Assembly: GCF_009905375.1 (NCBI RefSeq)
Contig: NC_133647.1
Span: forward strand, 45,690,506 to 45,754,505
Direction: 5' to 3'
Length of the DNA: 64,000 nucleotides
Origin: Apium graveolens
Lineage: Eukaryota; Streptophyta; Magnoliopsida; Apiales; Apiaceae
The notes below the pieces were generated by a model. The model searched no databases and had not been told where the DNA came from. It was given only the letters and a program-made list of their open reading frames with translations. Numbering within the stretch: the stretch's first letter is position 1; each line of letters starts with the position of its first letter. This document shows, piece after piece, positions 1 through 61,770 of the stretch. The position numbers and the translations under genes were made by a program.

Positions 1-915
1 AAAGAGTTAGTCATGTTCCATCAAACTCGGAAAGATAGAGATGATGCTTTCTATATTAGGGATGAAGTGCTTAAAATGAATGAATCTTTAAAAGCTGAGT
101 TAGAAAAGGAAAGAGAGATTATCAGGACTTGGACTAACTCTGGCAGAACAACTCAGAATTTGCTAAGTAGTGAAAACTGAAGAGAGGGCTTAGGTTATGG
201 AGATGATAAGAATGATAAAGGAACTGTAGAAATTAAGCCTATAGTTGTTAATCAAAAATCTAAGTTAAAGCTTGTTAAGTTTGTAGTTGTAAAGTCTGAT
301 AATGAGAAATCAGAAGTTAAAAAGGAATTAACTTCTGACAAACTAAAACAGGAAAAGACAACTGAAGTAAACGTAGGCTTAATGACAAAGAAGCAGCTTA
401 AGCATAAGCTGAAAGATGTTAAGAATGCAAACAAGGTAAAATCATCTAGGAAAAATAGGAATGGAAAGGAAGGTGTGAATAAAAGCAATGATTATAAGCC
501 TGTTCCTGATGCTCCTAGAAAAACATGTCATAACTGTGGAAGTTCTAACCATCTGGCTTCTTTTTGCAGGAAGAATAAGAACATAAACTCCTTACCTTCA
601 AAGTCAGGAGTTAAGAGTCAGTCTGTTAGATATAAGCCACAAAATCCTTGTTTTCATTGTGGTAGTTTATGGCATTCCATTTATACTTGTAAGGAATATC
701 ATAGTCTGTACTATGATTATTATCAAATAAAACCTTCTTTAAAGAAAGTTAGCTTTGTTCCTTCTAGTATAAGTTCTGATTCAAAGTCTGATAGTGTAAA
801 TCATGATAAGAAAAATGTTAACATAAACTCTGATGCTAAATTCGCTGCAAATGTTAACAAACTTAATAAGGCCAAAGGATCCAAGCAAGTCTGGGTCCTT
901 AAAATTAATCATTAG
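1..915 (+). pseudogene. gag: S1 gag, C-terminal part (two CCHC knuckles), with an in-frame stop
   Basis: Frame 1 is open from the window edge to TAG at 913-915 except for TGA at 178-180, where a Trp codon is the likely ancestor (TGG to TGA). The first 55 codons are charged and heptad-like, matching the coiled-coil end of gag in S2 and S4. Two nucleic-acid-binding zinc knuckles follow: CHNCGSSNHLASFC (about 526-570) and a variant CFHCGSLWHSIYTC (about 649-690). Gag would form the cytoplasmic particle and bind element RNA. The linker regions 285-345 and 765-840 carry AAGTTCTGAT-type motifs that encode Ser-Asp. The N-terminal capsid-like domain is outside the window. Inactive as it stands. Confidence 0.85.
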
Positions 916-927
916 TGGTCTTTGTGA

Positions 928-2630
928 TTGCAGGGCAACAGGAAAAACATCCTAGTTCTGGACAGTGGATGTTCAGGACATATGACTGGAAATAAAGCCC
1001 TGCTATCAGACTTTGTGGAGAAGGCTGGACCAAGTGTTTCTTATGGAGATGGCAACATTGGAAAAATATTGGGATATGGTAATATCAATCTTGGGAATGT
1101 CATCATTAAAGAAGTAGCTCTGGTCTCAGGACTTAAACACAATCTGCTGAGTGTTAGTCAAATCTGTGACAGAGGTTATCATGTGGATTTCTTTGAAGAA
1201 CACTGTGAAGTTATTAGTAATTTTTACATGCAAAGCAGTTCTGAAAGGATACAGGCATGGTAACATCTATGAAGCCAAGATTTCAACAAGTACTGATGGT
1301 TCTGCAATCTGTCTGATGAGTAGAGCATCAATTGAAGAAAGCTGGAATTGGCACAAGAAACTCTCTCATTTAAATTTTAACAATATAAATGAACTAGTCA
1401 AGAAAGATCTTGTGAGAGGACTGCCAAAGTCAGTATTTGCTCCTGATGGCCTTTGTGATTCTTGTCAAAAGGCTAAACAAAGGAAATCCTCATTCAAGAG
1501 CAAGAATGATTCATCAATTCTTGTGCCTTATCACCTACTACATGTTGATCTATTTGGTCCAGTAATAATCATGTCTATTACAAAGAAGAAATATGCTATG
1601 GTCATAGTGGATGAGTTCACCAGATACACATGGGTGTATTTCTTGCACACAAAAAGTGAAACTGCATCTCTCTTGATTGATTATGTCAAGCAGCTGGATA
1701 AATTGGTCAAAGATTCAGTGAAGATAATAAGAAGTGATAATGGTACAGAGTTCAAGAATTTAATAATGGAAGAGTTCTGCAAAGACCATGGAATCAATCA
1801 GGAATTCTCTGCTCCTGGAACTCCACAGCAAAATGGAGTTGTTGAAAGAAAGAATAGAACTCTCATTGAAGCTGCACGTACAATGCTTGATGAAGCAAAG
1901 CTTCCAACCTATTTCTGGGCTGAAGCTGTGCAGACTTCTTATTTTACTCAGAATGCAACACTCATTAACAAGCAAGGAAAGACACCATATGAGATGGTGA
2001 AGAAAAAGAAGCCAAATCTGAAGTATTTTCATGTATTTGGATGCAAATGTTTTGTTCTTAAGACTCACCCTGAACAGCTATCCAAATTTGATCTAAAAGC
2101 TGATGAAGAAATCTTTGTTGGATATCCACTTTCCATAAAAGCCTTCAGAGTCTATAACTTGAGAACAAGAGTGGTCATGGAATATATCAATGTCTCTTTT
2201 GATGATAAAAAGATTACTGGACTTGAAGATTTCAATGATCATGACCAGCTGAGATTTGAAAATGAAGACTTAAATTCTGATACTGAAAATCCTGACAGTC
2301 TAAATCCTGATACTGCAAACTCTGATGGATTAAACTCTGATGTTATTGAAACTGTGGTGACTACGCCAAAGGAAGATGCACCTATGCAGGGGGAGCATAC
2401 TCAAGATACAACCACCTCTCAAGAAGTATCAGAACATACAACTGGCTCTTCAAGTTCTGATTCGTCAAGTTCTGATAAGCCAAGTTCTGATAATTCTGAA
2501 AACTTAAATTCTGAAGGATCCAACTCAGAGAGCATAGTTTTAGGGGGAGCATCAGAAAATGTTGATGAAGATAGCATGGATCATGGGGGAGCATCCAGTT
2601 TTAGAGAAAACCTTCCATCTGCAAGGAAGT
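928..2630 (+). pseudogene. pol: S1 pol, 5' half: protease and integrase, frameshifted, cut by S2
   Basis: Pol begins just after the gag stop, around CAG at 931-933. The aspartic protease active site DSG (961-969) lies in the copia context LDSGCSGHMTG. The first frame ends at 1263. A frameshift between about 1220 and 1256 moves the sequence into the frame that stays open to the S2 insertion at 2631. Integrase shows the HHCC zinc-binding module (WHKKLSHLNF about 1346-1375, CDSCQK about 1459) and the DDE core (D in HVDLFGP about 1545, IRSDNGTEF about 1729, E in VVERKNR about 1840). From about 2225 the integrase-RT linker is Ser/Asp-rich because of repeated TTCTGAT words, and it holds three GGGGGAGCAT tracts. 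The frame resumes at 15885. Confidence 0.9.
2626..2630. repeat. S2 target-site duplication, left copy (GAAGT)
   Basis: GAAGT sits directly before the TG of the S2 left LTR and is repeated at 15881-15885 directly after the CA of the right LTR. Removing S2 plus one copy keeps the S1 pol frame in phase. Confidence 0.95.
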
Positions 2631-2824
2631 TGTTATTCCCAGTGGACTAACAATGAGATTTACAGAAGGGGGGTTGAATGTAAATCTCAAAACTTTTTCA
2701 AGTTTTGAGCAATTTGTAAGACTAAGTGTTTGAGTGATCAAATGTGTGTGAATTGCTTGGAGCTGATGTAGACAGATATATATTTAAACATAAATGAAAT
2801 GAACACAAAGAACTTAAAAACCTT

Positions 2825-2850
2825 TCTGGTGGATTTGTTGTTCCACCAGA
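2825..2850 (-). other. LTR hairpin, arms TCTGGTGGA / TCCACCAGA (S2 3' LTR)
   Basis: Perfect 9-bp inverted repeat with an 8-nt loop, downstream of the TATA box on the element strand, so it would be in the transcript. The same arms with different loops occur in S3 (42457-42484) and S4 (49429-49456, 61558-61585). Confidence 0.8.
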
Positions 2851-2979
2851 GATGTGTTATTTCAGAAAATCTGTGATTCAAAATTAAATCACAGCTGCTT
2901 CCTAGTACAAACTAGATGATTTTCTCTCTTGATATTTCTAAACAGCTCAGGGAAAATTCATATCTAATTACTAGCTACT

Positions 2980-3002
2980 ACTTGGTTTATATATCACCAA
3001 GT
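2980..3002 (-). promoter_or_regulatory. TATA box inside an inverted repeat (S2 3' LTR)
   Basis: On the minus strand GATATATAA lies between ACTTGGT and ACCAAGT arms. The same arrangement recurs at 15122-15144 and in the S3 and S4 LTRs. This is the likely Pol II core promoter of the LTR. Confidence 0.7.
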
Positions 3003-3228
3003 TTTCAAGTTAAGACAAAGATAAAGTACAATAAGACAATAGTTCTCCACTTGTTTCTGTTCCATTTTTATCCAGTGTAATATGGAATTATCTGTTGACT
3101 TTCCATTTTGAACCAGACTAAAAACGGCTGCTTTTTCTGCTGTTCCTGAAATAGGCTACCACATCTCTGTCAATCCATGTGCCTCTGTCAGCTTTGTTAA
3201 CTGTCACTATCAACTGCTATGAGACTGA

Positions 3229-60549: not shown

Positions 60550-60726
60550 AAAAATCTGCTCAGGCTAGAGGAGCATCTTGAATTGACTGTGAGCCAAACC
60601 TTGTATACCTTGTTTAAATTGAAGCACTTTCAGTTTTATCTACTTATCTTTAAAGATATATGTTTAGGATGTTTTGTTATCATCAAGTGTCTCTTAATTT
60701 ATGGCTACAATTCCAGTAGACATAAA
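60550..60726 (+). other. S4 spacer between ORF3 and PPT
   Basis: AT-rich, no ORF, closely matching the S3 spacer 41452-41628. Confidence 0.6.
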
Positions 60727-60737
60727 TTGGGGGAGAT
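60727..60737 (+). other. S4 polypurine tract
   Basis: TTGGGGGAGAT directly before the 3' LTR. Confidence 0.9.
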
Positions 60738-61361
60738 TGTTGTGAATATGTTGTGCACTTGATGATTACCTAAACAAAACATCTAAGTAGATTTTACTTA
60801 GTGAAATAATGTAGCACTCGACGGATAAGAATTATAGTCCCGACGGATAACTCAGTTTAAGTACCGACGGATGAGTAATTTATTATCCATCGAGTGAGTA
60901 GCTTATATAATGATAAGTTTGTAGCACAGTGTTGTATGCACCTTTGTATAGAATCTATAGTAGCATATAAGTCATGTTGACTTTAACTAGATATGCAGAA
61001 TAGGTTGATTAACTGTACATAAGCAATATCTTGTAATTCTGTATAAGTGAAATGAAGTCAAGTGCCAAAATAGCTATCAACGGATGCTTAACAAAGCTTC
61101 GACGGATGATCAAATGACTTTCAACGGATGTTCAAAATAGCAGTCGACGGATGATCAAGTAAGTCATCGACGGATGATCTGAAAGTCGATGGATGATAAT
61201 ATCAAGATTCAAACATCAGTTGAACAGTGAAAGCTGACACACAGCCGTCGAGATTGGATACAAACACTGTGGAAGCCTATTAACTGGGTAATAGAGGACG
61301 AAAAGCAGCAAAGATCAAGACTGTTAAATTTTATATTTATTCAGTTCTTTTGACTTTGTAA

Positions 61362-61386
61362 TCTTGGTAATATATATAAACCAAGA
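61362..61386 (+). promoter_or_regulatory. TATA box inside an inverted repeat (S4 3' LTR)
   Basis: Same as 49233-49257; could fire into flanking L1. Confidence 0.65.
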
Positions 61387-61557
61387 GAGTAGCAAATATA
61401 AAATAACTAAGAAAACTAAGTGAGCTTAGAAACAAACACAGAGAAATCTTTGTAAGCACTATCTTTAGTATTTCCTGTGTTCTTAGTTGTTTTATCTTGT
61501 AAAAGCAGCTGTGAGCATTTCTGCACACAGAGTTCTCTCGATATATTAATATATATC

Positions 61558-61585
61558 TCTGGTGGAATTGTTTAAATCCACCAGA
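61558..61585 (+). other. LTR hairpin, arms TCTGGTGGA / TCCACCAGA (S4 3' LTR)
   Basis: Same as 49429-49456. Confidence 0.8.
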
Positions 61586-61770
61586 AAGTTTTTAAAGACT
61601 TTTGTTTTTAATTACTCTTGTTTTGATTCAGTAAAGTTTATATTCCGCATTGTACTAATCAAAACAGATATATCTATAATCGAGTTGAACATTTTTATTT
61701 CAAGAAAAAGGCAAAGAATTCCATTCAACCCCCCTTCTGTAATTCTTGCTATATTGTTAAGGGACTAACA

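Follow-up and report, generated by a model that had tools for sequence, protein, structure and literature searches.

A stretch of 64,000 nucleotides from Apium graveolens (contig NC_133647.1, positions 45,690,506 to 45,754,505), referred to here as the window, contains four Sirevirus-like stretches (S1-S4) that carry short family-specific DNA words. In S2 and S4, these words form dense arrays in five compartments: the long terminal repeat (LTR), the 3′ end of gag, the linker between integrase and reverse transcriptase (INT-RT linker), the spacer between pol and the third open reading frame (ORF3), and a linker within ORF3. The family word is TCAACGGAT in S2, YCGACGGAT in S3 and S4, and AAGTNCTGAT in S1. 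All four elements carry their words at the places listed in the initial annotation of this DNA. The observation is real and strong, and it is the mechanism behind it that we infer.

S2 (2630-15880, minus strand) has LTRs that are 98.4% identical, the 5′ LTR at 14771-15880 and the 3′ LTR at 2630-3738, and S4 (48609-61773, plus strand) has LTRs that are 98.6% identical. S3 (40033-42676) is a fragment with a single LTR and the C-terminal part of ORF3. S2 and a Gypsy element break S1 into pieces. In the pol of S2, a Pfam scan places integrase before reverse transcriptase (PF00665, then PF07727), which is the Copia domain order. The gag of S2 contains the Copia gag domain PF14223 and a CCHC zinc knuckle (PF00098), and an additional reading frame, ORF3, follows pol, as is characteristic of Sireviruses.

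Exact words were counted against 300 dinucleotide shuffles per compartment, a control set beforehand as a test. S2 contains 12 exact words in the LTR, 4 at the gag 3′ end, 5 in the INT-RT linker, 6 in the spacer, and 5 in the ORF3 linker, with corresponding counts of 7, 4, 5, 4, and 5 in S4, and the shuffle means of 0 to 0.010 per compartment are nothing like these numbers. Exact words are absent from the reverse transcriptase-RNase H (RT-RH), integrase (INT), gag-core, and remaining ORF3 stretches of both elements, and allowing one mismatch yields only a few scattered matches outside the five compartments. Unsupervised 8-mer enrichment recovered the same words in S2 and S4, with 26-33 copies versus 0.01-0.32 expected, and found no comparable 8-mers in the two Gypsy stretches of the window.

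In S2, all arrays lie on the minus strand. The 5′ LTR holds 12 exact TCAACGGAT words, mostly head-to-tail with a spacing of 16-23 bp, and every word of the main array in the 3′ LTR (3229-3440) has the element-sense orientation. The words at the gag 3′ end (13018-13090) run forward, forward, reverse, reverse. Those of the INT-RT linker (10735-10885) are mostly spaced by 24 bp and encode (A/S)SVE/D, with one opposite word encoding STD. The spacer words (8655-8885) include two TCAACGGAT-N7-ATCCGTTGA inverted pairs, and the ORF3 linker words (6664-6782) alternate in orientation, encoding STD and HPLT/YPLM. In S4, on the plus strand, the 5′ LTR (48686-49130) carries seven YCGACGGAT and two TCAACGGAT words, with the 3′ LTR copies at 60818-61194. 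Four words at the gag 3′ end (51318-51398) encode STD and YPS/HPS, five in the INT-RT linker (53546-53660) are spaced by 24 bp and encode SVE/SVG, four exact words occupy the spacer (55558-55860), and the ORF3 linker (57637-57752) repeats the orientations and spacing of S2 with another word. Counting those in the LTR, the S2 word occurs in S4 at 48948, 48992, 55847, 61077, and 61121, and a AAGGGGGAGAAAGAACCAACT repeat was detected at 58867-58919 by Tandem Repeats Finder. The assignment of one cluster to the gag C-terminus holds for S4, where the frame is open, but in this copy of S2 the cluster sits just beyond the gag stop.

The sharing of one word by S3 and S4 is borne out by seven YCGACGGAT words in the S3 LTR (41719-42052, plus strand), the only compartment of this fragment that can be checked. 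For S1, clusters in equivalent places had been claimed; the pattern is the same, but it is weaker and its word looser, (t)AAnTtCTGAT among CTGAY sites, with neither CGG nor CpG. S1 counts are 3 in the INT-RT linker, 1+7 in the spacer, 2+2 in ORF3, 4 at the 3′ end, 2 in gag/protease, 1 in INT, and 0 in RT-RH, with shuffle means of 0.003 to 0.043. Its plus-strand arrays comprise AAGTTCTGAT words at 15-bp spacing in the INT-RT linker (2270-2495), encoding SSSD/PSSD, spacer words at 19904-21815, ORF3 linker words at 37039-37932, and an 18-bp array at the 3′ end (39488-39591) that is probably LTR. The spacer word at 19904 falls inside a 2.2-kb tandem duplication (15531-17707 and 17809-19984, 99.9% identical). 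The duplicated stretch takes in the S1 reverse transcriptase and a portion of the S2 LTR, and is therefore younger than the S2 insertion. The Gypsy element inside S1 ORF3 (22829-36011) has 3.9-kb LTRs that are 96% identical, and no dispersed word stands out in it.

The reading of the words in the coding compartments speaks for a signal at the level of DNA. The forward word in coding linkers encodes STD or PTD, and the peptide from the reverse word depends on the compartment, being YPL/HPL/YPS for gag and for ORF3 and SVE/SVG for the INT-RT linker (leaving out the S2 gag cluster, which lies past the stop). As the word is read as three peptides, the same nine bases sit in all three codon phases and in both orientations, and a peptide-level explanation was rejected on this ground. 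The ORF3 arrays of S2 and S4 have an identical order of orientations and identical spacing (16, 23, 25, 26, 16). Each of the six sites has a different word in the two elements, and in either element one site departs by a mismatch from the family word. Words of the main LTR arrays follow one another head-to-tail, those of the spacer and ORF3 point in both directions, and those of the INT-RT linkers mostly share one orientation, with 24-bp spacing. The coding copies also demonstrate how a DNA-level signal can shape the protein sequence of linkers.

Further copies in the 3.33-Gb genome were collected in two ways. The TCAACGGAT-N7-ATCCGTTGA pattern occurs 22,187 times, against 0 for the reversed control, and six S2-type copies picked by it were each read as three separate pieces. 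Clusters are present in gag, linker, spacer, and ORF3 in 6/6, a result for which selection is partly responsible in the last two compartments, and 5/6 have them in the LTR piece; all 160 exact words are TCAACGGAT, with 0 YCGACGGAT. A less biased sample was drawn by a reverse transcriptase (RT) codon pattern, from the first 100 of 52,909 places listed; this number, the total for the RT pattern alone in the genome, also means that elements with such a reverse transcriptase are very abundant. The linker set (n=20) combined all 18 listed S2- or S4-like RT sites not yet read with two such loci from the first 20 sites, and each of the 20 contains a linker word: only TCAACGGAT in 8, only YCGACGGAT in 11, and both in 1, with a single exact word in three. 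Four sites have an S2-like RT string yet carry YCGACGGAT, one of them mixed. At five sites (three S2-like in RT with YCGACGGAT and two S4-like), the other compartments were also read, with words in the spacer in 5/5, ORF3 in 4/5, gag in 3/5, and the LTR in 4/5; YCGACGGAT accounts for 76 of the 80 exact words there, linkers included. Pieces without words may reflect nested insertions or wrong offsets. Other members of the S2 and S4 families keep the clusters, which together with the shuffle result counters the refutation put forward in the initial annotation for these two families, and the word switches in coordination among compartments between subfamilies.

Conservation was assessed by comparing word columns with the columns between words. 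In the copies found by inverted pairs, changes amount to 19/189 versus 74/244 (p 2.6e-7, one near-duplicate copy dropped). Since exact pairs served to find these copies, the test has some circularity for spacer and ORF3; linker and gag alone give 8/63 versus 22/72. The cleaner test, on RT-chosen linkers, finds minority letters rarer in word columns than between them (59/531 versus 155/647, and 20/351 versus 48/465), where letters of related copies are not independent and the S2 set mixes eight TCAACGGAT with four YCGACGGAT copies. Methylated CpGs tend to decay through deamination. The words in S2 and S4 contain CpGs, yet vary less than the columns between them. Protein sites on double-stranded DNA fit the mixed orientation, the occurrence in every codon phase, the spaced inverted pairs, the smaller number of changes within words, and the coordinated switching.

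The proposal that each family uses the same five compartments proved too wide. Among the first 20 RT sites along the genome, sampled for generality with LTRs outside the sample, four (L027, L034, L037, L041) belong to a ACTTNTCGA family. Each has 11-15 copies of this word, located in the spacer with one exception, and none has linker words despite strong spacer arrays; the ACTTNTCGA words often form a 14-bp palindrome, ACTTNTCGANAAGT, without CGG. No clear family word is evident at two more sites (L025, L038), and at L033 YCGACGGAT is confined to the linker. S1-like families have a loose word whose linker-spacer match is statistical rather than site by site, with variants common to spacer and linker such as ACTCTGAT in L040 and AATTCTGA in L042. 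In a de novo transfer test, the top 8-mer of the spacer was more frequent in the linker than in any of 60 linker shuffles in 6/20 loci (L024, L028, L035, L036, L040, L042) and in both window elements. The test failed in the other 14, comprising the four ACTTNTCGA loci, L029, which has no word within the spacer range scanned, and nine loci whose top spacer word is weak or is not the family word (L023, L025, L026, L030, L031, L032, L033, L038, L039); the matches at L023 are not its own, because this locus overlaps the inverted element of L024 next to it. An ORF3 domain is present at 13/20 sites. The spacer component seems to be more widespread than the arrays in coding linkers, which were seen in the S1 and S2/S4 branches.

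A binding factor encoded by the element or the host, as originally suggested, is the best-supported reading, with an element-encoded one favoured over a host one, since the word is specific to each family and switches simultaneously in every compartment. We tentatively regard the words as family- or subfamily-specific arrays kept as DNA even within genes, which may well be binding sites for an element-encoded protein, probably the ORF3 N-terminal domain. This domain (S4, 55984-56796, plus strand; S2, 7665-8175, minus strand, the part within this open frame; S1, 22177-22842, plus strand) has in S4 a predicted fold resembling VANC21, and by this fold match only it is a concrete candidate reader of the word. 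It is predicted to bind double-stranded DNA, like the VANC anti-silencing proteins of VANDAL transposons. The S1 domain is tied to an S2-type locus (L029) by a tblastn match of 1.9e-26; this match was relied on, as the hhalign score of 100 between the S1-type and the S4/S2-type set may be partly circular, the pool of the second set having held the S1 protein. The ORF3 protein would enter the nucleus and read its own family's word at many points of the integrated copy, which could keep the element transcribable by locally removing CG methylation or repressive chromatin. The linkers that connect folded domains are presumably disordered and could host arrays without harm to an enzyme, which would explain the shared compartments, and protein and word would co-evolve, with one word per subfamily.

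A bolder and more doubtful form of this proposal is that the Sirevirus 'envelope-like' ORF3 is no envelope but a VANC-type sequence-specific anti-silencing factor, each subfamily possessing its own protein-word pair, with docking sites in gag, pol, and ORF3 linkers keeping the proviral copy open. If true, an anti-silencing system would exist in an LTR retrotransposon, element-encoded sequence-specific anti-silencing would not be confined to VANDAL DNA transposons, and there would be an explanation for the ENV-like gene, which lacks one so far, as well as for the repeated motifs on record since 2010. A named domain and a predicted word per subfamily make the pairing testable by gel shift.

Several results weigh against an ORF3 reader. 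The Pfam scan gave no DUF1985 (PF09331) match in the ORF3 proteins scanned, and no sequence link between ORF3 and VANC emerged from a 22-sequence profile or the S1 and S4 domains alone against PDB sequences, nor from hhalign of ORF3 against nine DUF1985 frames of the genome or against these with a VANC21 fragment, the ORF3 profiles being shallow (effective number of sequences, Neff, 1.5-3.4). VANC21 motifs are mainly non-coding and in the same orientation, whereas here three compartments are coding and orientation is mixed, only the main LTR arrays fitting. ENV-like genes are said to share transmembrane and coiled-coil domains, with no proven function (PMC3414828), which speaks against a nuclear reader; a hydropathy scan does not settle the matter, the maximum 19-residue Kyte-Doolittle mean being 0.44-1.33 in eight window ORF3 pieces and 1.18-1.89 in four homologs. 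A viral structure library returned no convincing match. The model of the ORF3 C-terminal domain was too poor for a structure search. ORF3 homologs with a named source come from Apium graveolens, Heracleum, and Daucus, all Apiaceae. Four celery gene models (P0010, P0016, P0018, P0046) combine ORF3-like sequence with RT, kinesin, kinase, or PPR domains and are probably annotation artefacts from retrotransposon insertions. DUF1985 is matched at least 52 times in the host genome, as judged from 150 scored candidates out of 208, which amounts to a pool of VANC-class domains resident there.

It is rather unlikely that the words are sites of host transcription factors driving the element, an idea raised for LTR repeated motifs in 2010. 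The largest clusters do lie in the LTRs of S2 and S4. The S2 word also includes AACGG, which we take to be the core of plant MYB3R/MSA sites. However, S3 and S4 alter exactly this core (GACGG) and S1 has an unrelated CTGAT word, coding compartments included; a host MYB-type site was rejected as a common cause and could apply to S2 alone. The published LTR motifs gave mainly stress-factor sites in the PLACE database (PMC2829016), but a host factor would not track each subfamily and leaves coding-linker copies distant from the promoter unexplained. If Gag or integrase, as another element protein, bound the words on DNA or RNA and served packaging, the assembly of particles, or the choice of target in this way, this would accommodate family-specific words that stay in step across the element, and both domains are present in S2. 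We consider it distinctly unlikely, as the two orientations within clusters would be two different words to an RNA-binding Gag and the Pfam scan gives only the usual integrase and zinc-knuckle domains; RNA packaging, named in the initial annotation, is less likely because orientation is mixed.

The inverted pairs of the spacer and ORF3, which have loops of 7 nt, could also fold as RNA hairpins in the transcript and serve regulation or, for the host, recognition by small RNAs. Such a role has been proposed for palindromes in maize Sirevirus LTRs, where small RNAs are in excess at palindrome clusters (Bousios 2016 as cited in PMC10760457). For the present words it appears improbable, given that they follow one another head-to-tail, without inversion, in the main LTR array of S2 and in most of the INT-RT linker arrays, and that the exact word, beyond complementarity, is kept across compartments. 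Replication slippage producing protein repeats (SVE/STD-rich linkers), with an incidental match to the LTR word, would suit the 24-bp (8-codon) tandem linker units and their varying number among copies, but is very improbable: one 9-mer occurs in all codon phases and both orientations, encoding different peptides in non-homologous compartments, word changes alter amino acids too (SVE to SVG, STD to PTD), and slippage multiplies a word locally and cannot place it in five compartments. Elsewhere in the window, a G+C-rich 9-bp tandem repeat, GGGGCTGCT and its rotations, occupies 63202-63305 and 63925-64000, touching the right window border.

Repeated motifs in noncoding parts of Sireviruses have indeed been described, as the initial annotation noted: 13 Sireviruses carry them in LTRs and upstream of ENV, with element-specific sequence, the authors found no binding factor common to them, and Table 3 of that report lists a few extra copies at the ENV start in two elements (PMC2829016, 2010). 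The present words resemble these repeated-motif (RM) boxes as high-copy, element-specific motifs in the LTR and just upstream of ENV, and S2 and S4 words share the CGG/CCG. What sets them apart is that dense arrays also occupy the 3′ end of gag, the INT-RT linker, and the deep ORF3 linker, that the word switches in coordination between subfamilies, and that the S1 word lacks both CGG and CpG. RM boxes are compact palindromes with a CGG-CCG core, whereas S2 and S4 have single half-words in either orientation, partly as N7-spaced inverted pairs. The palindromic motif clusters of Sirevirus LTRs (Bousios 2016 via PMC10760457) are likewise matched here, but that work, as far as its citing text goes, concerns LTR secondary structure and small RNAs and mentions no coding copies.

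The VANC/VANDAL system of Arabidopsis (PMC5735166, PMC10398659) offers a further parallel, with a short family-specific motif of 8-9 bp that is dense along the element and whose copies change quickly and together. The motif bound by VANC21 is YAGTATTAY, which recurs throughout the VANC21 element, that of VANC6 is AGTTGTCC/AC, and motif and protein change together (PMC5735166). The VANC protein is element-encoded, and here the reader would be the ORF3 N-terminal domain with its predicted VANC21-like fold. VANDAL is a DNA transposon, unlike the present Copia retrotransposon, there is no sequence match, and binding and demethylation are here only predicted. In sunflower SIRE elements, CG methylation drops dramatically mid-element, as a VANC-like factor would predict, without being linked to ORF3 in the accessible text (PMC12844716). 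The literature searched, with subscription journals and preprints outside its scope and papers accessible in part, yielded no link of VANC-type anti-silencing to Sirevirus ORF3 or motifs. Half of the observation, the LTR and pre-ENV copies of a family-specific motif, is already known (PMC2829016); new are the coding-linker arrays, their DNA-level nature, the coordinated subfamily switch, and the structural lead to an element-encoded reader.

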